Below the pieces are notes generated by a model, which worked only from the letters and a program-made list of their open reading frames with translations, searched no databases and was not told where the DNA came from. The translations under genes were made by a program, and so were the position numbers. This document shows positions 4,749 to 37,095 of a stretch of 37,128 nt of DNA, in pieces. Source of the stretch: Bacteroidia bacterium (lineage in GTDB: Bacteria > Bacteroidota > Bacteroidia > SpSt-205); NCBI GenBank assembly GCA_025059535.1, contig JANXCX010000010.1, forward strand, positions 1 to 37,128, read 5' to 3'. Numbering within the stretch: position 1 is the stretch's first letter; the number at the start of each line of letters is the position of its first letter.

Positions 4749-6083
4749 ATGATAGAAGTTACACTGCCCAAGCTCGGGGAAAGCGTAACCGAAGCTCGCA
4801 TCATCCGCTGGCTCAAAAAGGTGGGCGAAACCGTAGAAGCGGAAGAGCCTCTCTTGGAAATTGCCACCGACAAGGTAGACTCTGAAGTGCCAGCGCCGGC
4901 TAAGGGCGTGCTAGCCGAGATCTGTGTAGAGGAAGGGCAGACGGTGCCGGTGGGGACCGTGCTTGCGCGCATGCAGCCCGTTGGAATGAAGGGCGGTACC
5001 CCTTCGGAAGCCCCCTCCCCCGCCCCTCCTGCCGTTACAGAGGCCCCTGTACCTGCCTCGCCTACGAATGGCAAAGGGAGCCCCCGGATTCCCGCCCGCC
5101 ATGGCGACCGCTTTTATTCGCCCCTCGTGCGCACCATCGCCGCCCAAGAAGGCCTCACCCTAATGGAACTGGAGAAAATCCCCGGCACAGGTGCTGGCGG
5201 ACGCGTCACTAAGAATGACCTGCTGGCCTATTTAGCCCAGCGCCAAGCTACTCCAGCGCCTGCCCCTACAGCTCCCTCCCGGCCCTCCTCTATCCCCGCC
5301 GTATCGCTTGAAGACATCCTGGCCTACCTGCAAGAGCACTTTATCCTCATCCCACGCAAGAAATTCATTCATGAAAATGCCGAAATCCTTGAAATGGATC
5401 GCATGCGCCGCATTATAGCGGAAAATATGCTCTACTCTAAGCATGCTTCCCCCCATGTAACTTCCTTCGTAGAGGCAGATGTTACGAATTTAGTTCATTG
5501 GCGCGCTCGGGTCAAAGAAGAATTTGAACGCAAATACGGCGAAAAACTCACTTTTACACATGTATTTGTCCTGCTTTTGGCAAAGGTTCTGCGGGAATAT
5601 CCGCAGCTCAATGCCTCCGTAGAAGGAGACAAGATTTACCTCAAAAAGGACATTCATCTCGGGGTGGCCGTAGCTTTACCGGATAACAATCTGATTGTGC
5701 CGGTGGTCCGCCACGCCGATCGGCTGAACTTAGCCGGGATAGCCGCAGTAGTAAATGACCTTTCACGACGGGCACGCGCCGGCCAGCTCAAGCCCGATGA
5801 AATCACCGGCGGCACCTATACTCTTTCTAACGTAGGTACCTTCGGAAGTATTATGGGCACGCCTATTCTCCTTCAGCCGCAGGTAGGCATTATAGCCACA
5901 GGCGCCATCCGAAAAGTACCAGCCGTAGTAGAAACCCCTACCGGTGATCTCATCGGCATCCGCTACAAAATGTTCCTCTCGCACTCCTACGACCATCGGG
6001 TAATTGATGGGGCCTTAGGGAGTGCCTTTGCCCGTCGCCTAGCGGATTATCTGGAAAGTTGGGACCCAAACCTTCCAGTCTAA
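4749..6083 (+). CDS. 2-oxo acid dehydrogenase E2 (dihydrolipoyl acyltransferase)
   Basis: A 444-residue E2 component. The N-terminal lipoyl domain (about 1-78) carries the lipoylated lysine K42 in ATDKVDSE. A Pro/Ala-rich linker leads to a peripheral-subunit-binding domain (about 121-165, with GTGAGGRVTKNDLL), a second linker, and the catalytic domain (about 205-440) ending in HRVIDG, with catalytic H416 and D420. It transfers acyl groups from lipoyl to CoA in a pyruvate, 2-oxoglutarate or branched-chain dehydrogenase complex; the sequence does not settle which, though one lipoyl domain and the SHSYDHRVIDG motif fit the branched-chain or oxoglutarate types. No E1 or E3 gene is nearby, and the gene has its own promoter. 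Confidence 0.92.
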   Translation: MIEVTLPKLGESVTEARIIRWLKKVGETVEAEEPLLEIATDKVDSEVPAPAKGVLAEICVEEGQTVPVGTVLARMQPVGMKGGTPSEAPSPAPPAVTEAPVPASPTNGKGSPRIPARHGDRFYSPLVRTIAAQEGLTLMELEKIPGTGAGGRVTKNDLLAYLAQRQATPAPAPTAPSRPSSIPAVSLEDILAYLQEHFILIPRKKFIHENAEILEMDRMRRIIAENMLYSKHASPHVTSFVEADVTNLVHWRARVKEEFERKYGEKLTFTHVFVLLLAKVLREYPQLNASVEGDKIYLKKDIHLGVAVALPDNNLIVPVVRHADRLNLAGIAAVVNDLSRRARAGQLKPDEITGGTYTLSNVGTFGSIMGTPILLQPQVGIIATGAIRKVPAVVETPTGDLIGIRYKMFLSHSYDHRVIDGALGSAFARRLADYLESWDPNLPV

Positions 6084-6161
6084 AACGCCCCAAATTCCCC
6101 GCTCAGCTAGCTAAAGCCCAGAATTGCTAAGGGCCAGCCTATCGTGCCACGGTATTTGTGG

Positions 6162-6662
6162 CTAAGGGATATTTGGCAAAACCTCTCAGCGGCGAGAGGC
6201 GCTTCAGCGTCAGAAGTAGCGGAGGAAGCCTTCAATCAGCCAGCACGCCTGAAGGCAGAGGAGGAGCAGGTTATATGGTAGAACTCGAGTCGCCCTATAA
6301 AACGCCTATGCGCCTGCGCTATCGTTTTCCCCGCCCTGTGTGTGCGCAGAAGGTGCTAGAGCCTTTGGCGGAAAACTGCCCCTACTGGAATGACCTCTTT
6401 TATTTCCGCAAGGAAGAAAAGGCCCGGGTAATTGCCGCCTACGCCTTCTCTGACCGCTTGGGCTGCGGAGTAGAGAAACGGCTTTTTATAGTATCCCTGC
6501 GGACGCAAGCCGTCCTATCTCGTCCATCCTCTGTCGCCGAGCCTTACTTTCATCCTGGCCCGCCACCTAACTCCACGCTAATGGCGTTACAGAGGAACTA
6601 GAAGCCTTAGTAAAGCCTCTCCCAAACCCCTGCTTGAATCCGAAAAGCTTCAATAAGGCCTG
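6162..6662 (+). pseudogene. Decayed partial copy of the membrane/GAF-like sensor at 6988-8160
   Basis: Translated pieces in three frames match the downstream gene in order. At 6162 on, DIWQNLS and AEEAFNQPARLKAEEEQ match NIWQSLE and AQEALGQLERLRAKDQ, followed by an in-frame stop. From about 6273 another frame gives LAENCPYWNDLFYF and AAYAFSDRLG, matching LAEELPVLGGLFYL and ATYAFSDRLG. From about 6544 a third frame gives TEELEALVKPLP, matching PEGLERLALLLP. About 35 residues are missing before the third piece, and the six-helix N-terminus is absent. An uninterrupted 147-codon ORF at 6158-6601 spans part of it but joins two frames, so I read this as a frameshifted remnant. The rest of the 6084-6828 interval shows no other gene. 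Confidence 0.82.
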
Positions 6663-6814
6663 AAGCTTCCTTTGCCCCGCATCGGTACCTGCGGCGCGCC
6701 GCTTGTAGGCTATCCCCTCTAAGGATTTTTCAGTACCCCAAAGCCTATACCAAGCTTCCCTCAAGCAGGCTAGTTGGAGAGCCCGGAGCAAAACCAGCCT
6801 GTCTAAAAAATTCG

Positions 6815-6822
6815 TATCTTTG
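6815..6822 (+). promoter_or_regulatory. -7 promoter box of the tRNA-Ile/Ala pair
   Basis: TATCTTTG matches TAnnTTTG and ends 6 bases before the mature tRNA-Ile. An A-rich tract lies just upstream. Confidence 0.62.
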
Positions 6823-6828
6823 CGGCCT

Positions 6829-6902
6829 GGGCCTGTAGCTCAGTTGGTTAGAGCGCGACACTGATAATGTCGAGGTCCGTGGTTCGACTCCACGCAGGCC
6901 CA
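6829..6902 (+). tRNA. tRNA-Ile(GAT)
   Basis: The cloverleaf has acceptor GGGCCTG/CAGGCCC, anticodon stem CGACA/TGTCG, loop CTGATAA with anticodon GAT, and discriminator A. CCA is not encoded. Two bases separate it from tRNA-Ala(TGC). This pair usually sits in the 16S-23S spacer, but no rRNA flanks it here. Confidence 0.95.
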
Positions 6903-6904
6903 CG

Positions 6905-6977
6905 GGGGAGTTAGCTCAGTAGGCAGAGCGTCGGCTTTGCAAGCCGAAGGTCAGCGGTTCGAATCCGCTACTCTCCA
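6905..6977 (+). tRNA. tRNA-Ala(TGC)
   Basis: The cloverleaf has acceptor GGGGAGT/ACTCTCC with the alanine G3-U70 pair, anticodon stem TCGGC/GCCGA, loop TTTGCAA with anticodon TGC, and discriminator A. CCA is not encoded. The ATG of the sensor gene begins 10 bases after its 3' end, so tRNA 3' processing would create the 5' end of that mRNA. Confidence 0.95.
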
Positions 6978-6987
6978 CAATCCCCCA

Positions 6988-8160
6988 ATGAAAAAGGAAC
7001 ATACAGCCTCCCTCTTCCGAGTCGCCCGCTACCTCGTTTGGACAGTAGCTGCAGCCTATGTGGCTAATCTTGCCCTTGCTCTGAACCTACCCCCTAGCTG
7101 CGAGTCGCGCACCTTTCACCTCCTCGTAGAGGGCATAGGGCTAGGACTTACCTTAGGTCTAGCCTATTTTATTCATCACTCGTCCAGGGTAATTTGGCGT
7201 ATTCTCTTAGTTTTTTTGGCTCTAGCCCCTCTTATGCTAGAGACCGCCCTTTTCTATCCCTTCAATGGCGGTACTCTGTGGTGGAGCTGCTCTGCTGCAG
7301 GCTATGCAGGCATACTCCTCCTAGAGTACTGGCGCTGGCGTACCTCCCTATTCCTTGCCCTCAGCGTGGGCGGAGTAGGCCTCCTCATAACCCTTTTTCA
7401 TGATAAGATGGCTATTTTTCCTGCTGACCCGCTGACGCACGGCCGGCTCCGTCATGGTATTCTCCAATTCGCCATGATAATCGTAGTGATCTTGGCGCTT
7501 AGAATGAATAGAAACATTTGGCAAAGCCTTGAAGATCGGGAAGCTCGGCTGCAAGAGGCGCTTCAGCTCCAGCGGGAGACTATGACGAGTCTTTTAGAGC
7601 AGCAGAGGCTAGCGCAGGAAGCGTTGGGTCAGCTGGAACGCCTGCGGGCAAAGGACCAGGCGCGCACTAAAGCGGTGGAGTTCGTCTCACACTACGAGAC
7701 GCTTATGCGCACCAGCTACCACCTCACGCTCCCCGAGTTTGCGCGGAAGATACTGGAGCATTTGGCCGAAGAGCTGCCTGTACTGGGTGGCCTTTTTTAC
7801 CTACGGGAAGGGGAAAAAGGGCAGGTTATTGCTACCTATGCTTTCTCAGACCGCTTAGGCCATGAGGTAGAAGGGGGGCTTTTTCGGAGTGCCCTGCTGA
7901 CTAAAAAGCCTTATGTCGTACATCCCTTGCCCTCAGGTATTGCTCTACCGCTTAGCTCGTTACCCAGCCCCAGGCCGGAAGCGCTGCTTTATCTGCCTTT
8001 CTTCAACGATGCTACGGGGGAGTCGGTGGCGCTGGCCGAGCTTCTCCTGAGTCAGCCGCCTGCTCCTGAGGGGTTAGAGCGGCTAGCCCTTCTTTTACCG
8101 CGCATCGGCACTTATATCTGGGCGCGCCGCACGCAAGCTACCGCTCCTGCCACCGCCTAA
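6988..8160 (+). CDS. Six-helix membrane sensor with coiled coil and GAF-like domain
   Basis: A 390-residue protein with about six transmembrane helices in the first 180 residues, a charged Gln/Arg-rich coiled coil (about 185-230), and a GAF-like cytoplasmic domain (about 235-375, with GLFYLREGEKG and ATYAFSDRLG). No kinase, cyclase or other output domain follows; the end is a short Ala/Thr-rich tail. A signal-sensing or scaffolding role is inferred. The frame is open further upstream through the tRNA, so I chose ATG 6988, the first start after tRNA-Ala. No ribosome binding site is visible and the gene probably depends on the tRNA promoter. Its stop overlaps the end of the convergent GldB-like gene by 3 bases. 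A decayed partial copy lies at 6162-6662. Confidence 0.75.
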   Translation: MKKEHTASLFRVARYLVWTVAAAYVANLALALNLPPSCESRTFHLLVEGIGLGLTLGLAYFIHHSSRVIWRILLVFLALAPLMLETALFYPFNGGTLWWSCSAAGYAGILLLEYWRWRTSLFLALSVGGVGLLITLFHDKMAIFPADPLTHGRLRHGILQFAMIIVVILALRMNRNIWQSLEDREARLQEALQLQRETMTSLLEQQRLAQEALGQLERLRAKDQARTKAVEFVSHYETLMRTSYHLTLPEFARKILEHLAEELPVLGGLFYLREGEKGQVIATYAFSDRLGHEVEGGLFRSALLTKKPYVVHPLPSGIALPLSSLPSPRPEALLYLPFFNDATGESVALAELLLSQPPAPEGLERLALLLPRIGTYIWARRTQATAPATA

Positions 8161-9203
8161 GGCCTATACTGCGCTTCAGCTAAGAGGCGTGGATAGTCTT
8201 TCCATTCAAGCCGCAGAAGCTCCGGTAGGGAAATCTTCTTGCGCGCCACATAGCGGCGCACTATCTGCCAGCCAAAGTACCACCCCAGTCGCGGCGGCGA
8301 GTCCCGCCCAAAAAGTTTAGTGAAAGGCTCCTCCTCCACAAAGGGTTGAAAGAGGGAAAATTTAGTCTCTTGGAAGTATGGCAGAAGCTCTTTATAAGCA
8401 TAGCGCGCATTCTGGGCTAGCCATTCTAAATGCGCCGGCGTATAAAAGAGCCTCAGCGTATCATGAAGCTCTGGTAGAAGTTGCTCTAGCGCATAGAGCC
8501 GAATCCCATGCCAAATCATATGATGTATCAAAGTAGGTACAAAAACCTCCTTGCCCATGCAGGGCTGGGGCTTTGGAGGCATTTTACTCTGGATAAGTTC
8601 CAAAGCCACAAACACCGGCAGGTGGGGTTCAGTGAGTCGCCGCCGAATGTAATACGGCAAATCGGGCTGATAATAGGGAAAGGTGTCGGACAAAAAGTAA
8701 TTCAGCCCTATCATGAGATGCTTCTCGCAGAGGTGGCATACCTCATACTCTAAGGCTAAGATGGGATTGGGATCGTAGCCGGTTACGAAGGTAACTATCT
8801 GAGGAAGAGTATCCTCAGGGAAAAAGTACTTCCATCGTTGAAAGAGCGGCTTGAGTACGGCTGCAAAGTCGTAGGTTGGGGGATAGCGGCGTAGGACGGT
8901 ATCCGTCAGCCAGCGTATGTGCCAGTCGCTAGAGTACTTCACATAACTCTGGTAGGCGCTATCGGTCTGGTTGGTATCACCGCCGTATAGGCAGTCATAT
9001 AGGAAGGCCCATTGGCGCAGGGAGTCTTCTGGCCGGCTGTAGCCGTAGCGAAGCGCAACCTCGGCTCGCCATACGCTGAAGGAAATTTCGGGTAGGGCCG
9101 CTTCGGTCGGTGCGGAGTCGGAAGCACAGGCAATTAGTACAAGCCCACATAGCGTCGTAAAAGCCACTCGGCGCAGAGAAGAAAGAGGATTAGCCCGAGC
9201 CAT
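8157..9203 (-). CDS. gldB: GldB-like gliding motility lipoprotein
   Basis: A 348-residue lipoprotein. A signal peptide with lipobox (LVLIAC) begins at ATG 9203; the frame is open back to 9308 without a better start. The core matches the GldB family as I know it: a conserved segment around FQRWKYFFPEDTLPQIVTFV, another around LMIGLNYFLSD, and the closing PPRLGWYFGWQIVRRYV. In Flavobacterium johnsoniae GldB is needed for gliding and works with the Gld/T9SS machinery in the envelope. The N-terminal 70 bases overlap the end of the VWA gene. It is the last gene of the four-gene envelope operon, and its presence agrees with the T9SS cargo genes in the window. The assignment rests on recalled family motifs, without an alignment. 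Confidence 0.78.
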   Translation of the reverse strand: MARANPLSSLRRVAFTTLCGLVLIACASDSAPTEAALPEISFSVWRAEVALRYGYSRPEDSLRQWAFLYDCLYGGDTNQTDSAYQSYVKYSSDWHIRWLTDTVLRRYPPTYDFAAVLKPLFQRWKYFFPEDTLPQIVTFVTGYDPNPILALEYEVCHLCEKHLMIGLNYFLSDTFPYYQPDLPYYIRRRLTEPHLPVFVALELIQSKMPPKPQPCMGKEVFVPTLIHHMIWHGIRLYALEQLLPELHDTLRLFYTPAHLEWLAQNARYAYKELLPYFQETKFSLFQPFVEEEPFTKLFGRDSPPRLGWYFGWQIVRRYVARKKISLPELLRLEWKDYPRLLAEAQYRP

Positions 9204-11008
9204 AGCCCCCACTCGTGGAAAGGTATTGTTTCGTGCTGCAAAGATAGGAGGCGCTGGGCAGGCACAGCTTCTAGGAGGGCGGCTGGTAGCGTGTGGCGCG
9301 CTTCCCACAAAAGCATTTTACCCCCTGTGGTACGGGCTAGGTAGGCTAGGTAGGTCGTATCCCTACCCAGCCGGCGCAGTTCGCGGCTGAAGGCCGAAAC
9401 CACCACATAGCCGGCGGCTACTACGGAGTCCCCGCGCCGAAGAGCATAGGTATAGGTACCCGCCGAATCTACTACGGCTACGGCTTCGGTAAGGCCGTCA
9501 GGCGCCGTTTGTACGGGCCATTGCCTACCCTGAAAGTAAAACGCCGTACCAGGCGGTAGATAGCCCCGCCAAGTGATGGCTTCCCCAGGGGCAAAGACAA
9601 GACGGCGTGGGGCAAAAGCTAGCTGACTCCGCTGAAAGAGAAGCCCCTCTTGCACTAAAGCGCTGATGAGAGAGTCCCACTGGGCTAGAAGCGTGGGGTA
9701 AGCCCGCAGCTGCCACCATCCCTCCCCCGTAATCGCCGTAAGTAGCTTATTTCCCCTATAGTACTTATACCCTATGGGAAAAGGCCAGCCGATCTCAATA
9801 GGCCGGACGGTAGCGGCGAAATGGCCCGTATGGGCATATACCGTGGGCCCACCAAACAGCGTATAGGGTAGAAGGGGGCCAATCTCCTCCCAACCCAGCT
9901 CCCGAAGCTGCTCTGGATGAAGGGTCACCGCACCCCAAATCGCCAGCAGAAATCTATTTTCCCTAAAAAGCCTATTTAGCCACACCTCATCCTCTGGACG
10001 CGCCGGAAAGTTGTAGAGTACATGAACACTGTGGGGTGTGGTTATTAAGGTTTCAGGATTGAGGGTGTAGCCGCTAGGCTTACGGGCCGCTATCAAACGC
10101 ACCGGCCCTATTTTTTCCAGAAGGCGCCGAAGAAACGCAATATCGGGGGTAATCTCCCCCGCCCATAAGTAGAAGGTAGGCTGGTCTGAAGCTACCGAAA
10201 GGATAAGGGTATGGACATTATTGGCTGGGTTAGGATCGCCGGCTACCTCTAGCTGGAGCTGGACCTTATGGAGGCCAGCGGGAAGCGGTGAAAGGTTTAG
10301 AAGGACGGTTCTTTCTGAGGCGAGCAGGGGTAGGCGCTGCCGCCCCCCAGGAAAGGTTACTGTTAGGACGGCTGGGCTGCCAGCAGTATGCAACCGAACC
10401 CTGAGTTGGATGGGCTGTTTTTCACGCAGCCAAGGGGGGACTTCTACGCTTTCTAGGACGGCATCCGGCGGCGGTGTCGGCCCTACCGCTAAGGTCCATA
10501 CAGGCACGGCCGAAGAGAGAGGGAGGGGCTCGCCTGTTTCCCTACCGTCTGAAATAAGGAGGACGGCGGCGGCTTGCGGCTCCTGCTGAAGCACCGTAGC
10601 GAGACCCTCGGCTAGTGGACTAGCTTGACCTTGCCCCGTAAGCGAGTCGCCTCGCCGCACCCGCTCCTCCAGAAGGTATTCTATGACTTCCACGCCGCGC
10701 TGGCGCAGAGCTTGCACTAACGCCCTAACCCCTTGTTGATAGGCGGCTACCGTGAGGCAATCGCCCCATACCACGCTTTGGCTATTATCCGCCACTACCA
10801 CTACGCGGGGAGGGAGGGTGCGAGCCACCTTGCGAGACCACGCCGGCTCCCCCAGTAGAAATACCAAAGCGGCTATGGCTAGTGCCCTTAGCGCCCCTAA
10901 ACCGTAGCGCCAGGCGCGCGGGAGCTGTACCGCCAAACGACTATAGCTCCACCAGGCCGCTGCTGCGCCTACCCCCACCGCCACCACACCCCACCCCCAC
11001 ACATTCAT
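9134..11008 (-). CDS. VWA-like membrane protein
   Basis: A 624-residue protein with two N-terminal transmembrane helices (about 5-20 and 36-53), a von Willebrand A-like domain, a long extracytoplasmic beta-rich region, and one C-terminal helix (about 600-617). The MIDAS-type motif is D74-N-S-Q-S78 and a later ISDGRETG supplies the Asp; the usual Thr position reads Ser in ASPLAEGL. Such Bacteroidota proteins resemble BatA-type membrane VWA proteins but their role is not settled. The start codon overlaps the GT2 stop as ATGA. Being placed between a GT2 enzyme and GldB suggests an envelope-assembly role, which is inference. Confidence 0.72.
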   Translation of the reverse strand: MNVWGWGVVAVGVGAAAAWWSYSRLAVQLPRAWRYGLGALRALAIAALVFLLGEPAWSRKVARTLPPRVVVVADNSQSVVWGDCLTVAAYQQGVRALVQALRQRGVEVIEYLLEERVRRGDSLTGQGQASPLAEGLATVLQQEPQAAAVLLISDGRETGEPLPLSSAVPVWTLAVGPTPPPDAVLESVEVPPWLREKQPIQLRVRLHTAGSPAVLTVTFPGGRQRLPLLASERTVLLNLSPLPAGLHKVQLQLEVAGDPNPANNVHTLILSVASDQPTFYLWAGEITPDIAFLRRLLEKIGPVRLIAARKPSGYTLNPETLITTPHSVHVLYNFPARPEDEVWLNRLFRENRFLLAIWGAVTLHPEQLRELGWEEIGPLLPYTLFGGPTVYAHTGHFAATVRPIEIGWPFPIGYKYYRGNKLLTAITGEGWWQLRAYPTLLAQWDSLISALVQEGLLFQRSQLAFAPRRLVFAPGEAITWRGYLPPGTAFYFQGRQWPVQTAPDGLTEAVAVVDSAGTYTYALRRGDSVVAAGYVVVSAFSRELRRLGRDTTYLAYLARTTGGKMLLWEARHTLPAALLEAVPAQRLLSLQHETIPFHEWGLWLGLILFLLCAEWLLRRYVGLY

Positions 11009-14364: not shown

Positions 14365-14646
14365 ATGGAATCCAGGGAGGTATATTCCGTCAAAGTGAGA
14401 GCGGGCAAAAGGACCTATATCTTTGATGTACGCTCTACGCGAAATAGGGACTATTATATCACTATCACCGAAACCAAGCGGGACTTTACGGGAGAGATAA
14501 GCCAAAAGCAAAAGATTTTCCTTTACAAGGAGGATTTTCTCAAGTTTCAGCGGGCGCTGGACCAGGTAATTTCACATGTGCGGACGGACTTGCTGCCGGA
14601 TTTTGACTACGATCGCCCGGACCGCGATGAGGCAGACAAATCCTAA
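14365..14646 (+). CDS. DUF3276/PUR-domain nucleic-acid-binding protein
   Basis: A 93-residue protein whose sequence (ESREVYSVKVRAGKRTY, DYYITITETK, KIFLYKEDFLKF) matches the short DUF3276 family common in Bacteroidota. This family is related to PUR-alpha proteins, which bind single-stranded DNA and RNA as dimers; the cellular role in bacteria is unclear. The acidic tail (DYDRPDRDEAD) is usual for the family. It is transcribed from its own promoter, divergently from the propeller-OmpA operon, and its last 107 bases are antisense to the 3' end of the LytS-type kinase gene. Confidence 0.88.
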   Translation: MESREVYSVKVRAGKRTYIFDVRSTRNRDYYITITETKRDFTGEISQKQKIFLYKEDFLKFQRALDQVISHVRTDLLPDFDYDRPDRDEADKS

Positions 14647-29235: not shown

Positions 29236-32200
29236 TTAGCGTACGACGGTGACGGTGCCAGTCAGCTGTTCCTCCTCACCGTTATGCTTTATGCCAGTAA
29301 AGAACCAGACGTATACGCCTTCGGGTACCGGCTTGCGTAGGCCGCCCACTTGGGCTTCCCCATCCCAGTACTTGGTTTCGCCGCGACGCTTATGAAAGAC
29401 TAGCTGCCCCCACCGGTCATAGATGCGAAGCTCATAGTCGGCATAACCTAAGGCGGGGAAGTAGAAGAAGTCATTTATTCCGTCTCCATTAGGGGAGAAG
29501 CTGGTAGGGATGAAAGACTCATCCACAGGGGCTACGATAATCGGTCCTTTGCGGATTGAGTCTACGCAGTCGCCGGTGTACATATAGAGCGTCACATAGA
29601 AGGTACCTGCAGGTGGAAAACGATGGGTAGGGGCGCGGTCGGTGGAGGTAGTGCCATCGCCGAAATCCCAGCGGAAGGTAGTGGTAGGCGTCACGTTACG
29701 GGAGGTATTTATGAAGCGGACCACAGGGTTACTGGAAGCTAAGCGAGCGGGTATGGGTGGCTCGGATTCAAAGTCGGGCACGGGGGCGGGTACCATCTCA
29801 GCTATCGTTGTGCCCGAGCCCGAACACCCGCTGGCGGTAGTGATGGAGACACGCCAGACGCCCGGCCGCGTATCGGTAATCCGGTAGAGATTTACCCCTT
29901 GAGCAACCGTAGCGCCATTCAGGGTCCACAGGTAGGTAGCCCCAGGGTAATAAGGCGCCTCTAAGCGTACCAGCGGATTAGCCGGGCAGAAGCGTATGGT
30001 ATCGGGCAGGCGCACCTGTACGCTGGGGGTGATTGTAACCTGCACCGTATCAGAGCCCATGCAAGAGCCTGCCAGCACTACCACCACATAGACACCTGAA
30101 CCCGTCGGCGTTATGGAAGGTCCATTGGCGCCAGGGATAGCGAGGTTGTCCTTATACCACACATACGTAGCGCCTGCGACCGTAGGCGCCGTGAGCGGCT
30201 GGATGGGGTCCGTGCTGCAGTAAAAGACATCTGGCCCTAAGTTGACGGTGATTTGATTGTCAAATCGCACTACGACGAAATCCTGACCGATGCAGGAGGA
30301 GCCTTGGGGCTGTACGGTAACCCCATAAACGCCGGGTTGCGTTACGACTAAGGTATCCGCCGTGGCGCCGGGGATCACCTGGCCGTCCTTAGTCCAGGTA
30401 TGCGTCGCACCTGGATAGCCGCTGCGCAGCACATAAGACATGCCACCACTGGCACAGAGCGAAATATCAGGGCCCAAATCAACAGGGATTTGGTCCGAGA
30501 CCTGAATTTGGACGGCGTCTTGGCCTACGCAGCCTGTAGGGGTTGTGACGCGCACGGCGTAAATCCCGCTTTGGGTGACTTGAAGGGTTGGGCTATTGCC
30601 GCCGATGGGTTGCCCGTCTCGGGTCCATTCATAGGTCAGCCCACCAGGCCCTGCATCTAAAGTAATGGGCAGATCCGATCGGCAGAGAACCCGATCCGGA
30701 CCCAAATCTACTTGGAGTCGGTCATCCACTTGGAAGGTAACCTCGGCGGTATCGCGACAGCCATCCACTACGACGACAAGACGCGCCGTCTTAGGACCTG
30801 GCCCGGCGAAAGTGACCCCTGTCGGATTAGGCTCCGTGGAGGTGCGTGGCGTGCCATCCGGGAGAAATTCCCAAAGGAATATGGCTTGCGGATCTGTGGT
30901 ACCAACTTGGGTAAAGCTGTAGGGTAATCCGATGCACCTGTCTTCCACGGGAGCGATAGCCGCTGTGGGCTGAGGCTTTACATATACCGTGCGGGTCACG
31001 CGATGCGAGCAACCTGTGGCCGGATCGGTAATAGTAAGGGTTACGGATTTCGGCCCAGGTGTACTGAAGCGAATGCCCGTAGGGTTTTCCTGATTGGAGG
31101 TTTGCGGGGTGGCGGAAGTACCGAAATCCCAGAGATACTGGAGATTAGCCCCCGTAGAGCCGCTGTTGCGGAAATCAAAAGTTTCATAGACGCACTTAGG
31201 CTGAGGCGGCGTGAAATCCGCCACTGGTCCATTCACTACGGAGGCAGTGATAGAGGCTAAATTAGAAGCGCAGCCACGCGGCGAGGTAGCCACAACCGCC
31301 ACCACATCCCCATTGCGAAGGCTGTCCGTGATGTAGGTATTAGTAGTTACGCCAGGAAGGAGGTTACCATTTAGGGTCCAGCGGAAGGAAGAGCCGTTTG
31401 GTGCACCCTGAGCGGTGAAGGTAACTACACTGCCTCGGCACACGACACCCGCTGGCGTCTGGGTGAGGGTGATAGTAGGTACAGGATGCACCGTCATAAG
31501 AATTTGATTGGAAGGCTGACCGCCAGCAGGGCAGCCGTTTGTAGAGGTAACCACCAGGCGCACTACATCGCCATGGTTGAGCGTAGAAGTGATGAAGCTG
31601 GGACCATTAGCCCCGGGTACATTCTGCCCATTTACTTGCCATTGATAGGTAGGATTAGGGCCCGCATCTTGGACATTAGCTGTGAAGATTACCTGATCGC
31701 CCGCGCAGATAGGATTGGCTGAAGCTTGAATCTCCACAGTAGGATTCGGCCGCACGGTTACAATCACAGGCGCCGAGAGGGAACTGGCCCCCGAACACCC
31801 ACCCGAAGAAGTAACCCGCACCGTAACCACATCCCCATCCCGCAAATTATTAGATGAAAAGACGGGGCTATTTGCGCCAACCGCCAGGTTATTGACATAC
31901 CACTGGAAGGTAGGGTTGGGCCCAGCCCCCGCAGCCGTAGCGGTAAATACAATCATCTGACCTTGGCATATAACAGGGGGATTAGGCGTAGTAGTGACGG
32001 TTACAGTAGGCTGACCTAATACGGTGATAGCTATCGGATTAGAGTTGGCCGTGCAGCCACCGGGCGTCGTAACCTGTACATGAATGACATCCCCGTCATT
32101 GAGAGTGCTCGTAGTAAGGGTGTTAGCCGTGGCCCCAGGAATAGGAGCATTATTTCGGTACCACTGGTAGGTAACCGGGGCAGAAGCCGTAGCAATAAAC

Positions 32201-35200
32201 TGTACAGATTGCCCACTACAGATCGTCGTGCTAGAAGCGGTGATAGAGACGGTAGGCGTTACTTCTACCAGAACATTTACGGTGTTTGACTGGGAAGCTG
32301 GCCCTGTACAGCCATCCGTAGAGACAATCACTACATGCACGGCGTTATTGCCCGGCTGGAGGGTGGTAGTGGTGTAGGTGTTGGAAGTAGTGGTGGCTAC
32401 AAGGAGGTTATTTACATACCAGCGGTAGGTGGGGTTGGGGCCAGCATTAGCTGGGGTAGCGGTAAAGGTAACGGCCGCACCTTGACATATACTATTGGCC
32501 GAGGCCGTCAGGCTAACCGTAGGGATGGGGGAGACCGTTATAGTTATGGTATTAGAAGGGGCACTAGCGCAGCCTTGGGAAGAGACGACCGTAGCGTAAA
32601 TCTGATCCCCATTGTTGAGGTTATTGGTGGTATAAGTAGGAGAATTGCTGCTAGCCACAAGGATAGGCCCCGCACCGCTATTGCGATACCAGTTGTAGGT
32701 AGCACCCGCGCCGGCGTTATTAGCCAGTGCGGTGAAGGTTACCGATTGCCCAGGGCATATGGGATTTTGGGATACCGTGATGCTGACGGTAGGTATAGGA
32801 TAAACTACCGCCGTGTAGATATTGGAGATGCCACCTCGGCAGCCGGCCGCTGAGGTAGCTTGAACCCATACCCGATCCCCATCGTTGAGGTTGTTACGCA
32901 CGAATGTCGTGGCGGCTCCCACTTGCTGAGACTGGCCATTTACAAACCATTCGTATGTAGCGCCGGGTATAGGGGTAGCCGAGAAAGTTACGGTTTGGCC
33001 GGCGCAAATAGCCCCAGGTGGTGCAGCGGTAAGGGTTACGCTAGGCGCCGGGTTTACGGTAAGGGTAAGCGGTGCGCTTACCGAGCCTGGCCCTGTACAG
33101 CCAGCCGTGGAGGTGACACGCACCCGCACTACGCTTCCATTCTGCGGATTGGCCAGGGTAAATACCGGTGCATTAGGCCCTACGGGTTGATTGTCCACAA
33201 ACCACTGATAGCTTGGATTAGGCCCCCCGTCGGTTACAGAGGCCGTAAAGGTGATAGGGGTGCCTTCACATACGGTTGTACCAGGATTAGCCGTGACGGT
33301 TACAGTAGGTATGGGATTCACCGTAAGGGTAATAGCATTAGAAGGCGCGCTTTGGCATCCCAAATCGGTAGTTACGATACACCGGACCACATCGCCATTC
33401 TGAGGTGTGTAGGTAAAGACGGGCTGATTTACGCCCTGGGAGGCGTTGTTTACCTGCCAGTCGTACTGAGAGTTCGGACTGCCATTCAAAACATTAGCCG
33501 TGAGGGTTACCTGCTCGCCCGCACAGACCGTAGTAGCGGAAGCCGTAATAGTTACAATTGGAAGAGGCACGGCATTCACCGTACTAGGAGCGGAGCGGCC
33601 ACTGCTGCACCCCCCTGCCGTAGTTACCTCACAGGTTACCTGCGCGCCGTCTGGAAGGACTACCGGACCGAAAACCGGCGCATTCACGTTCTGATCCACC
33701 CCATTCACCCGCCAGACATAAGTAAGAGGAGCGGGCGTGCCATTCGTTATCAGCGCATTGAAGGTTACAGGCTGACCTGCACATACCACAGGGTCTATAG
33801 GGGAGACCTGCACCGTAGGAATAGGATGTACCGTTATGGTGATGGGATTAGAACGCGAAAGCGTTGCATCCGAGCACCCCTCAGTAGAAGTTATAACGCA
33901 GCTCACTACCGCCCCATCCGGCAATTGATTAGTTACAAAGACAGGGCTATTAGTGCCGACAGGAGCGTTATTCACATACCACTGATAGGTCGGATTAGGT
34001 CCTGCGTTGGTAGGTGTAGCCGTAAAGGTTACCGTCTGACCCTCACAGATAGTCGTAGCACTGGCCGTAATAGAGACCGTAGGCATAGGGTGTACGACAA
34101 CGGTGATGGGATTGGAATACACAGGGCTTGAGCAGCCAACGCCATTAGGGGTGACTACACACCGCACTACATTCCCTGTACTCAAAGAGTTTGTAGTAAA
34201 GACGCTTCCCGTAGCGCCTGGGATATTAGTCCAACCTGCCCCTTGATCAACCTGCCACTGATAGGAGGGGAAAGCACCTGCATTAGTAGTAGTGGCCTCA
34301 AAGGTAAAGTACTCACCCTGGCAGATCTGCGTGCGATTAGCCGAAATAACTACCAGCGGCGCAGGGTCCGCATCTATGCGGATCACATTGGAAGGTGCGC
34401 TGGTACAACTGCCCTGCACAGCTATGGCATACACCTCATCACCATCATTGAGCGTATTAGTGCTAAAGGTAGTGCCTGTGAAGCCTGTGAAGTTCCCATT
34501 TACGTACCACCGCACTATAGCAGTATTCGGATTCGGGGTAGCCGTGAAGGTAACATTAGAACCCTCGCAAATAGGCCCCAACGGTCCGGTAATCGTTACG
34601 GTAGGGGTAGGATTAATGGTCATTCTAATTCTATTGGATACAAAGGTGCCTGCCCCGCACACGGTATTCACCTGCATTTCTACATATACCTCATCGCCAT
34701 CCTCCAGATCGGTGGCCGTATAGGTATTGCCTGCACCCACTACAGGCGTAGTTGTGGCGCCACGCACGCGGTAGAACTGATAGACCGGTGCCGGAGGCCC
34801 ACCTACAGGAACAGCCGTGAAGGTTACCGCTTCACCCGCACAGGCTGGATTGCGGGAGACCGCCAGATTTACGCCAAAGTTGGTACCCGGTACCAGGTTT
34901 ATCGTGGCCACGGGCGTCACTACAGGGCCGCAGCCTTGATTATACACCAGCGCACGCAGGAAAGTGGTAGAGTTGACCGGGCCAAATACCCAGCTCTCCG
35001 AATTAGGGCCAATATTCACCCAGTTTCCGCCCACCAATCGCTGCCACTGAATCTGATCACCCGTATAGTTAGAGAGGGTAACCAGCACATTAGAGCCGCT
35101 GCAGGCGGGATTGGGGTCTACCAAAATCGTACCGGCAACCGGCGCTGGGCGTACGGTGACGCTGACGATATTTGAGAAGGCCTCGGAACACGGACCACCC

Positions 35201-37095
35201 CCAGGTATGAAGGCCCTTACGCGGAAGTAGGTAGTTTGAGTGACATTAGGAAAGGTTACATTAGCAGTGGTGTAAGAGGTATTCACCCAGGAAGCCGCAT
35301 TCCAGGGCGTATGGGTATACTGCCATACAATACTACCTGTAAAGCCAGCCACGGAAAGGTTCACGCTCTGGCCGGCGCAGATAGAGGTGGGATTGACTGA
35401 GGCTACGCCAGGGTTAGCGCCCGCATTCAGATTGAAGACTACGACCGTAGAGAAGGCCGGCTGGCATGAGCCATTAGTGATGCGCACACGGTAGCGCGTG
35501 CCATTGACTACGATGGGTTCCGTGAGTATGGTAGGAGTTACACCGCTTACCACATCGGTCCAAGTGGCGCCCCCGTCTATGCTACGCTGCCATTGGTATT
35601 GCACATTCGGACCCTGAGAGTGACCTACTACACCTACCGTATGCTGCTCACCTGGGCATACATTTAGGACAGTTATACCCGGGGTGTTGATGTAGGCAAA
35701 GCCGCCCTGCGAGGGCGCGCTCACGGTAATGCGCCGACGGGTGAAGGAAACCGCCGGGTCAAAGCAGTTAAGTGGGGTAGTAGAGCGTACTTCTACCTTG
35801 ATTTCATCGCCGTCGCTAAGAGTGGGATTACCGTTCGGCGCGGTATTCGCATTAGGGAAACGGTTACCGTTTTGGGAAAGTCGGACCCATCCCAGCGTCT
35901 GGGGGATGCCATTTATAGACCAGCGAAACTCTGGATCCGGGTCGGCCGGGGGGCCAGGGAAAGGATTAGCCGTGAAGGTATTGGTAGCCAAGGGACCCGA
36001 ACCGCAAATTTCGCTCGGCCCCGTAAGGGTTACCAGAGGGTTCGGCAGCACATTTATCTGCTGCTCAATCGGACGGGACCAGCCACAGCAATTATGACGT
36101 ACCCGCAAACGTACGGTATAGACACCGGGGTTAAGGAAATAGATAGCCCCGGGGTTGCGCTGAGCCCTTACGTTATCAGGTACGGGGTCGCCGTTGGGGT
36201 TAATAAAGCCGCCTGGGAAGGTCCATTCCCAATCAGTCGTATTAGCATCGCCGAAGCGCCCTGGAGCCGGTACTCGTTCAAAGACTAAGGCACGACCCGC
36301 ACATACGCTGGTGCTGGGCTGCCCCTGATAGTAAGTAGCAATGCCGGGAAGGAGGCGATCCGTAAAGATATTGATGAATTCGGTGTAGGTTACATCTTGA
36401 CCCCCTGGGCCAGCTGGCGGGCCATCCCGCGTAATAGTATGCCATCCTTGATTAGAATACCATACCACTGCGGTGGAACCACCCCCAGCGGTTTGAAGAA
36501 CGTTAGCCCCCGGCGTTACCCACTGCGCCCCTGGACCTACACTCTGAGCGATAGTGATTTCGGAGTTAGTGCAGCCTTCCAAAAGCTCTACATTGAAGAC
36601 ATAGGGCGGATTAGGCACATTACCGCAAGTTTGAACTCCATTCACCCCACAGCCTGGGACAGATATGGTAGGGGCGTTTGTTGGGGAAAAACTGCCACCC
36701 CATACATTAGCGATGGCGTAAGAAGGCCCATCTAGTCCACGACCTCCATTACCTCCCCGGGCACCCGGTCCCCCAGAAGCTCCAGCGGCGCCGCGTCCAC
36801 CGTTCTGAATTGCGCCTCCACCGCCCCCACCACCGCCACCATTTCCACCGCTGCCACCGATACCTCCATTTCCACCTACCCCTCCTCCGCTGCTAGCAAA
36901 TCTACAGTCTATTACGAAGCCGCCCGCACCATTGTTTATGGTAAATAAACCAAAGGAGCCACCCCCTCCATAGCCGCCGCCGCCGCCACCACCGCCGCCG
37001 CCACCACCCCCCCCCCCCCCAACACCACAACCAGCAAAGCCCAAGCAAAAAAAAAAATGAAAAAATGTATAATTAAATTTTGTTTTAACCCCCAC
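29236..37095 (-). CDS. Giant repeat surface protein with T9SS type B (CHU_C) sorting domain; 5' end uncertain
   Basis: The frame encodes about 2,619 residues. A Gly-rich start (to about residue 130) is followed by a PKD-like part, about 17-18 Ig-like modules of roughly 85 residues (each with an ICxGxxVTFTA-type strand and a YQWYVNN-type strand, about 31250-36050), two PKD-like modules, four LGPD/LPD modules with a conserved Cys, one PKD module with WDFGDGTTSTDRAPTH, and the C-terminal gliding-associated domain with SFSPNGDGINDFF, YDRWGQLVF and PEGVYVWFF. Such proteins are exported by the T9SS and kept on the surface. No enzyme domain was seen; an adhesin or filament role is inferred. The listed GTG lies in homopolymer-rich sequence at the window edge, so the true start is unknown. 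A terminator follows. Confidence 0.85.
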   Translation of the reverse strand: MGVKTKFNYTFFHFFFCLGFAGCGVGGGGGGGGGGGGGGGGYGGGGSFGLFTINNGAGGFVIDCRFASSGGGVGGNGGIGGSGGNGGGGGGGGGAIQNGGRGAAGASGGPGARGGNGGRGLDGPSYAIANVWGGSFSPTNAPTISVPGCGVNGVQTCGNVPNPPYVFNVELLEGCTNSEITIAQSVGPGAQWVTPGANVLQTAGGGSTAVVWYSNQGWHTITRDGPPAGPGGQDVTYTEFINIFTDRLLPGIATYYQGQPSTSVCAGRALVFERVPAPGRFGDANTTDWEWTFPGGFINPNGDPVPDNVRAQRNPGAIYFLNPGVYTVRLRVRHNCCGWSRPIEQQINVLPNPLVTLTGPSEICGSGPLATNTFTANPFPGPPADPDPEFRWSINGIPQTLGWVRLSQNGNRFPNANTAPNGNPTLSDGDEIKVEVRSTTPLNCFDPAVSFTRRRITVSAPSQGGFAYINTPGITVLNVCPGEQHTVGVVGHSQGPNVQYQWQRSIDGGATWTDVVSGVTPTILTEPIVVNGTRYRVRITNGSCQPAFSTVVVFNLNAGANPGVASVNPTSICAGQSVNLSVAGFTGSIVWQYTHTPWNAASWVNTSYTTANVTFPNVTQTTYFRVRAFIPGGGPCSEAFSNIVSVTVRPAPVAGTILVDPNPACSGSNVLVTLSNYTGDQIQWQRLVGGNWVNIGPNSESWVFGPVNSTTFLRALVYNQGCGPVVTPVATINLVPGTNFGVNLAVSRNPACAGEAVTFTAVPVGGPPAPVYQFYRVRGATTTPVVGAGNTYTATDLEDGDEVYVEMQVNTVCGAGTFVSNRIRMTINPTPTVTITGPLGPICEGSNVTFTATPNPNTAIVRWYVNGNFTGFTGTTFSTNTLNDGDEVYAIAVQGSCTSAPSNVIRIDADPAPLVVISANRTQICQGEYFTFEATTTNAGAFPSYQWQVDQGAGWTNIPGATGSVFTTNSLSTGNVVRCVVTPNGVGCSSPVYSNPITVVVHPMPTVSITASATTICEGQTVTFTATPTNAGPNPTYQWYVNNAPVGTNSPVFVTNQLPDGAVVSCVITSTEGCSDATLSRSNPITITVHPIPTVQVSPIDPVVCAGQPVTFNALITNGTPAPLTYVWRVNGVDQNVNAPVFGPVVLPDGAQVTCEVTTAGGCSSGRSAPSTVNAVPLPIVTITASATTVCAGEQVTLTANVLNGSPNSQYDWQVNNASQGVNQPVFTYTPQNGDVVRCIVTTDLGCQSAPSNAITLTVNPIPTVTVTANPGTTVCEGTPITFTASVTDGGPNPSYQWFVDNQPVGPNAPVFTLANPQNGSVVRVRVTSTAGCTGPGSVSAPLTLTVNPAPSVTLTAAPPGAICAGQTVTFSATPIPGATYEWFVNGQSQQVGAATTFVRNNLNDGDRVWVQATSAAGCRGGISNIYTAVVYPIPTVSITVSQNPICPGQSVTFTALANNAGAGATYNWYRNSGAGPILVASSNSPTYTTNNLNNGDQIYATVVSSQGCASAPSNTITITVSPIPTVSLTASANSICQGAAVTFTATPANAGPNPTYRWYVNNLLVATTTSNTYTTTTLQPGNNAVHVVIVSTDGCTGPASQSNTVNVLVEVTPTVSITASSTTICSGQSVQFIATASAPVTYQWYRNNAPIPGATANTLTTSTLNDGDVIHVQVTTPGGCTANSNPIAITVLGQPTVTVTTTPNPPVICQGQMIVFTATAAGAGPNPTFQWYVNNLAVGANSPVFSSNNLRDGDVVTVRVTSSGGCSGASSLSAPVIVTVRPNPTVEIQASANPICAGDQVIFTANVQDAGPNPTYQWQVNGQNVPGANGPSFITSTLNHGDVVRLVVTSTNGCPAGGQPSNQILMTVHPVPTITLTQTPAGVVCRGSVVTFTAQGAPNGSSFRWTLNGNLLPGVTTNTYITDSLRNGDVVAVVATSPRGCASNLASITASVVNGPVADFTPPQPKCVYETFDFRNSGSTGANLQYLWDFGTSATPQTSNQENPTGIRFSTPGPKSVTLTITDPATGCSHRVTRTVYVKPQPTAAIAPVEDRCIGLPYSFTQVGTTDPQAIFLWEFLPDGTPRTSTEPNPTGVTFAGPGPKTARLVVVVDGCRDTAEVTFQVDDRLQVDLGPDRVLCRSDLPITLDAGPGGLTYEWTRDGQPIGGNSPTLQVTQSGIYAVRVTTPTGCVGQDAVQIQVSDQIPVDLGPDISLCASGGMSYVLRSGYPGATHTWTKDGQVIPGATADTLVVTQPGVYGVTVQPQGSSCIGQDFVVVRFDNQITVNLGPDVFYCSTDPIQPLTAPTVAGATYVWYKDNLAIPGANGPSITPTGSGVYVVVVLAGSCMGSDTVQVTITPSVQVRLPDTIRFCPANPLVRLEAPYYPGATYLWTLNGATVAQGVNLYRITDTRPGVWRVSITTASGCSGSGTTIAEMVPAPVPDFESEPPIPARLASSNPVVRFINTSRNVTPTTTFRWDFGDGTTSTDRAPTHRFPPAGTFYVTLYMYTGDCVDSIRKGPIIVAPVDESFIPTSFSPNGDGINDFFYFPALGYADYELRIYDRWGQLVFHKRRGETKYWDGEAQVGGLRKPVPEGVYVWFFTGIKHNGEEEQLTGTVTVVR

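Follow-up and report, generated by a model that had tools for sequence, protein, structure and literature searches.

A membrane sensor gene that probably moved past a tRNA-Ile/tRNA-Ala pair by duplication and decay in a Bacteroidia genome

The window analysed here (the whole stretch of 37,128 nucleotides) is contig 17 of the 1.92 Mb draft genome of a member of the Bacteroidia (GCA_025059535.1, 25 contigs; hereafter the source genome). A tRNA-Ile/tRNA-Ala pair was found in it between an intact gene predicted to encode a membrane sensor and a decayed copy of the same gene, an arrangement that a preliminary description of the window had proposed (Table 1). The gldB gene to the right is convergent with the intact sensor gene, and the stop codons of the two overlap.

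Table 1. Position and description of the features at the sensor and tRNA locus, from left to right in the window.
Feature	Position	Strand	Description	Evidence
E2 acyltransferase of 2-oxoacid dehydrogenase complex	4749..6083	+	Left neighbour, outside the duplication	Pfam PF00198, E=3e-72
Decayed sensor copy	6171..6719	+	Matches residues 177-386 of the intact protein, without the membrane half	tblastn, blastn, colinear DNA alignment
TATCTTTG, TAnnTTTG -7 box	6815..6822	+	Starts 14 nt ahead of tRNA-Ile; probably drives the tRNA pair and, by inference, the sensor gene too	
tRNA-Ile(GAT)	6829..6903	+		ARAGORN; Rfam RF00005, 74.2 bits
tRNA-Ala(TGC)	6905..6978	+		ARAGORN; Rfam RF00005, 74.5 bits
Intact sensor gene, 390 aa	6988..8160	+	Predicted membrane helices, coiled coil and GAF-fold domain	Full-length relatives, predicted structure
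gldB	8157..9308	-	Right neighbour, outside the duplication	Pfam PF25594, E=3e-51

The product of the intact gene was searched against the window using tblastn, a check suggested with the preliminary description, and one significant second place was identified (6278-6580, 47% identity, E=3e-17); blastn gave 68% over 252 columns (E=5e-18). In a gapped local DNA alignment positions 6171-6719 were colinear with 7516-8146 (sensor residues 177-386) at a score of 244, whereas 100 dinucleotide shuffles scored 32.4 on average and 46.5 at most. The homology originally placed at 6162-6662 is real, but it begins at 6171 and ends at about 6719. The decayed copy was found to contain 22 indels, of which 15 are deletions (98 nt or approximately 33 codons, in good agreement with the "about 35" residues previously counted as missing) and 7 are insertions (16 nt), and three reading frames are needed to follow the sensor protein through it, as had been noted earlier along with the stops and frameshifts. 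No counterpart of the first 176 sensor codons, which encode the membrane helices, was detected in the decayed copy, and the similarity of positions 6084-6170 to this half was not significant, 16 of 200 shuffles scoring as high, which upholds the earlier remark that the membrane part is absent.

The open reading frame at 6158-6601 had no match to any Pfam family, and when open reading frames were clustered its relatives were sensor genes; it does not form a separate conserved family. Homology to a working gene, disruptions and relaxed constraint, the three marks by which a pseudogene is recognised, were all found in the decayed copy. A search of the source genome with the sensor protein gave matches at two places only, the intact gene and the decayed copy, while a family profile added a single weak match (E=2e-5), which falls in the GAF domain of a 1329-aa protein encoded on contig 1. 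The latter protein (L130:2217-6206) combines one GAF domain with several PAS domains and lacks an output domain, and similar frames are present in relatives of the same genus.

The structure of the sensor protein was predicted from a nine-sequence alignment (mean pLDDT 82.7, pTM 0.47), which was used instead of a single-sequence prediction that was too poor (mean pLDDT 54.4). The predicted structure consists of helices fitting six membrane spans, a long helix (residues 153-242) and a GAF-like alpha/beta domain (residues 248-385). The solved structures which best matched the predicted domain are GAF domains (first among them 3ci6_A, Z 16.8, rmsd 2.6, 147 aligned), and the best Foldseek match was 4g3v_A (E=3e-6). 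By sequence, Pfam GAF_2 (PF13185) scored 25.5 bits, below the curated cut-off of 28.6, and matched at E up to 1 in 4 of 10 family members; the family profile gave only weak matches to the sequences of solved structures (best E=0.12). From the model, the C-terminal domain is predicted to have a GAF fold, a feature shared with the GAF-domain sensors of PF13185, although the sensor described here falls below the Pfam cut-off. No output domain, such as a kinase, cyclase or phosphatase, was recognised, and GAF_2 was the sole match in Pfam and NCBIfam. A sensor histidine kinase was considered and rejected, as no kinase domains were found and nothing follows the GAF-fold domain in the protein.

The membrane part was matched to the adenylyl cyclase Rv1625c (7yzk) with Z 15.7 and rmsd 4.0 over 191 aligned residues at 7% identity, a score barely above that of unrelated helical models. 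In both proteins the membrane helices run into a long coiled-coil helix, a helical-bundle likeness that is suggestive only, and the two differ in what follows, a cyclase in Rv1625c and a GAF-fold domain in the sensor. Because no output domain is recognisable, signalling may proceed by protein contact through the coiled coil and the GAF-fold domain, and it is tentatively suggested that the protein probably detects a small ligand or the state of the membrane and signals by contact with a partner protein.

The kinship of the two copies was assessed against ten sensor copies from nine relatives. The core of the decayed copy (77 aligned residues, the first six of which were put across a gap by the aligner and left in) is 50% identical to the intact copy, compared to 19-35% to the ten others. 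The decayed and intact copies were recovered as sisters with UFBoot values of 99 (core region) and 98 (full alignment), and in the region tree they share a stem of 0.63, from which the decayed copy departs on a branch of 1.04 and the intact copy on one of 0.16. Relative-rate counts ran in the same direction with all ten outgroups, with 10-17 changes seen only in the decayed copy compared to 1-5 (P=0.0005 to 0.077, and below 0.05 in 9 of the 10 outgroups, which are not independent of each other). As the copies are sisters and the decayed branch is several-fold longer, these comparisons support the earlier proposal of a duplication followed by decay of one copy, and place the duplication in this lineage.

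Mismatch at the first, second and third codon positions was 0.23, 0.29 and 0.38 between the two copies, which is not flat (P=0.014), and 0.46-0.52, 0.31-0.43 and 0.65-0.74 between the intact gene and its counterparts in the nine relatives, which is less flat than between the copies. The lower third-position mismatch between the copies indicates that the gene was duplicated after this lineage had separated from each of the nine relatives. Since the mismatches between the copies still vary by codon position, the decayed copy may have stayed functional for a while before it decayed. Eight core positions are invariant in ten intact proteins; three are changed in the decayed copy and five are kept.

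Homologues of the sensor protein were sought in 40 genomes, the source genome included. Matches were obtained in 11 of these, namely the source genome and all ten relatives of the same genus, while the remaining 29 gave none, and the family was therefore found only in one genus of the Bacteroidia among the genomes searched. The sensor was full-length in nine of the ten relatives, the exception being G001, in which a C-terminal fragment lies at a contig end. Searching 13 genomes of the order with a profile brought up one extra match in another family, a weak one (E=5e-4) that falls mainly on the coiled-coil part. When contigs were scanned with a single sensor protein no relative was detected, and with the family alignment ten loci were. 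Two diverged sensor genes were identified in G010: the one on contig 74 (L027:8795-10156) is intact and groups with G002 (UFBoot 100), and the other, at the end of contig 12 (L028:14-1230), groups with G004 (UFBoot 84) and is split by a frameshift, which may reflect a sequencing error given how near it is to the contig end. As the two group with different species, an older duplication is likely, and the sequences suggest that one or other copy was lost in different species.

The tRNA locus was also compared among the relatives, the second check suggested at the outset. The pair was present in eight of the ten (it was not found in G003 and G006), and because the contig of G001 ends 26 nt before the pair, seven relatives have sequence upstream of it. 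An intact sensor gene lies directly upstream of the pair and on the same strand in three of these (G005, G007 and G009), and no sensor gene or remnant was found there in the other four (G002, G004, G008 and G010). A sensor gene downstream of the pair was seen in none of the eight. What follows the pair in all eight is a PQQ-repeat gene, then hflX where the stretch reaches that far; only the first residues of the PQQ-repeat gene are present in G004, at a contig end, and it is approximately 780 nt from the pair in G007. In the source genome the PQQ-repeat gene is found on contig 5 next to a relative of the hflX group, and there are no tRNAs there. The order of pair, PQQ-repeat gene and hflX is kept in the genus (L026, L029, L030, L067-L071) and broken in the source genome (L115).

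In a midpoint-rooted five-protein tree with several weak nodes the lineage of the window and G007 branch early, which makes the upstream site the likelier ancestral one. As four of the seven informative relatives have neither a sensor gene nor a remnant upstream, three species and this tree are the basis for the ancestral placement. On that footing we consider it probable that the position upstream of the pair is ancestral. Since three of the seven relatives carry an intact sensor gene upstream, the decayed copy appears to stand at the old site and the living copy to be displaced, which the preliminary description had not proposed.

The surroundings of the sensor gene differ in most relatives. 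As a control the surroundings of the E2 gene were compared and these vary too, the gene after E2 being common to three relatives at most, so that the scatter is not peculiar to the sensor. The outer flank of gldB also differs among relatives. On contig 6 of G007 (L082:6426-12503) gldB and the adjoining VCBS/OmpA gene are each broken over several frames, probably through indel errors in the assembly, or else through decay. In G002 and G004 (L069 and L067) the 78 bases right after tRNA-Ala are identical, though the proteins are approximately 78% identical; the G004 part stops at the contig end, and either recent exchange or a mixed assembly could be responsible. A search for 16S rRNA gave nothing in the source genome and 11 relatives, one of them a single-contig genome; the genes may have been withheld or missed, and this absence is uninformative as to whether the pair is linked to an rRNA operon.

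Taken together, the sensor gene was probably duplicated around the tRNA pair, with decay of the upstream copy and survival of the downstream one, and so moved past the pair. A genus-specific membrane sensor gene would first have stood directly upstream of the tRNA pair, and a duplication in this lineage would have placed copies on both sides of it. The upstream copy would have lost its membrane half and then decayed by deletions and frameshifts, while the downstream copy would have stayed intact as what is now the sole working copy, the net effect being a shift of the gene from before the pair to after it. The simplest account of the duplication itself, and the one we moderately favour, is that the sensor gene and the tRNA pair were duplicated together in tandem, that the second pair was lost and that the first sensor gene decayed. 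As no second pair or remnant remains in the source genome, which has one pair only, the tandem step is one that we infer. The result resembles tandem duplication-random loss in that the copies flank a tRNA unit, one of them is decaying and the gene order is changed, and the duplication is the lineage's own (UFBoot 98-99); that process, in the accounts consulted, is mostly described for animal mitochondria, whereas the present case is on a bacterial chromosome and the second tRNA pair is gone.

The main alternative to tandem duplication is that the second copy arose elsewhere, beside gldB, and that a later rearrangement, breaking between tRNA-Ala and the PQQ-repeat gene, left the pair flanked by both copies. 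The separation of the PQQ-repeat gene from the tRNAs in this genome alone would be accounted for, the outer flank of gldB and the surroundings of the sensor gene vary among relatives, and that flank and the junction after the pair are both sites of gene-order change in the genus. The two sisters would, however, have to be brought back together by chance, both facing the same way and flanking the very pair beside which three relatives carry the gene, and we regard this route as possible but unlikely. Tandem duplication of pair and sensor could also have started from a sensor gene standing after the pair, the first pair then being lost and the upstream copy decaying; the present order is explained equally well and the downstream copy would be the original, but with the sensor gene after the pair in none of eight relatives and before it in three of seven, there is little to recommend this starting point.

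It is highly improbable that the reading frame at 6158-6601 functions as a short gene for a sensor lacking the membrane part: the frame is open over 147 codons and retains the five invariant core positions mentioned above, but its first third is out of the sensor frame, the conserved C-terminus has been lost through frameshifts, no Pfam family corresponds to it, and the copy evolves several-fold faster than its sister. The least credible reading, for which the draft state of the genome could be cited, is an error of assembly or a second copy of foreign origin: the copies are approximately 30% apart in DNA, making a repeat misjoin unlikely, and are each other's closest relatives, so that neither looks foreign.

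With relocation by duplication and decay as the preferred reading, the locus presents a bacterial change of gene order in a readable state, in which both duplicates are visible and relatives point to the probable old site, and a genus-specific sensor family turning over through duplication and decay. Overall this is ordinary gene birth and death, unusually well preserved.

The motif TAnnTTTG is described as the -7 box of flavobacterial sigma-A promoters (PMC9723704). It was found to start 14-16 nt before tRNA-Ile in all nine tRNA pairs examined. The intact sensor gene starts 9 nt after tRNA-Ala with no TAnnTTTG in the 9-nt spacer, and the 250 nt before the gene contain the motif once only, 173 nt upstream, where it belongs to the tRNA pair. 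A TAnnTTTG is present between the pair and the PQQ-repeat gene in seven of eight relatives (the exception being G007). Among the ten sensor copies of the relatives the motif lies 12-16 nt before the assumed start in four (G002, G005, G007 and the second copy of G010, G010b), only further up in two, and is absent in four. As only four of the ten have it, its absence here is weak evidence for the loss of a promoter. Given the start just past tRNA-Ala and the lack of a motif between, the sensor gene probably depends on the tRNA promoter, and it is likely that the living copy is transcribed from that promoter together with the tRNAs, a second point that adds to the preliminary description.

More doubtful is the further step, that the move behind the pair cost the sensor gene its own promoter and that the tRNA promoter captured it, giving tRNA punctuation of an mRNA. 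Were this so, cleavage of the transcript at the tRNA-Ala 3' end would yield a nearly leaderless sensor mRNA beginning 9 nt before the ATG, the level of the sensor would track stable-RNA synthesis and growth rate, and regulation would have been rewired in one step by gene relocation. Punctuation of mRNAs by tRNAs is known from mitochondria, and in E. coli thrU-tyrU-glyT-thrT-tufB constitutes a tRNA-mRNA operon. The present locus is like the latter in that a protein gene directly follows tRNA genes, probably in one transcript, and differs in that co-transcription is here deduced from the layout and would have been acquired through the relocation of a gene.

Two other genes of the window were noted. 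A 2619-aa open reading frame (29236-37095, minus strand) has a glycine-rich start and many Ig/PKD-like repeats and probably encodes a giant surface protein. A short DUF3276 gene (14365-14646, plus strand) overlaps opposite-strand open reading frames at both ends and is kept with its neighbours across the genus.
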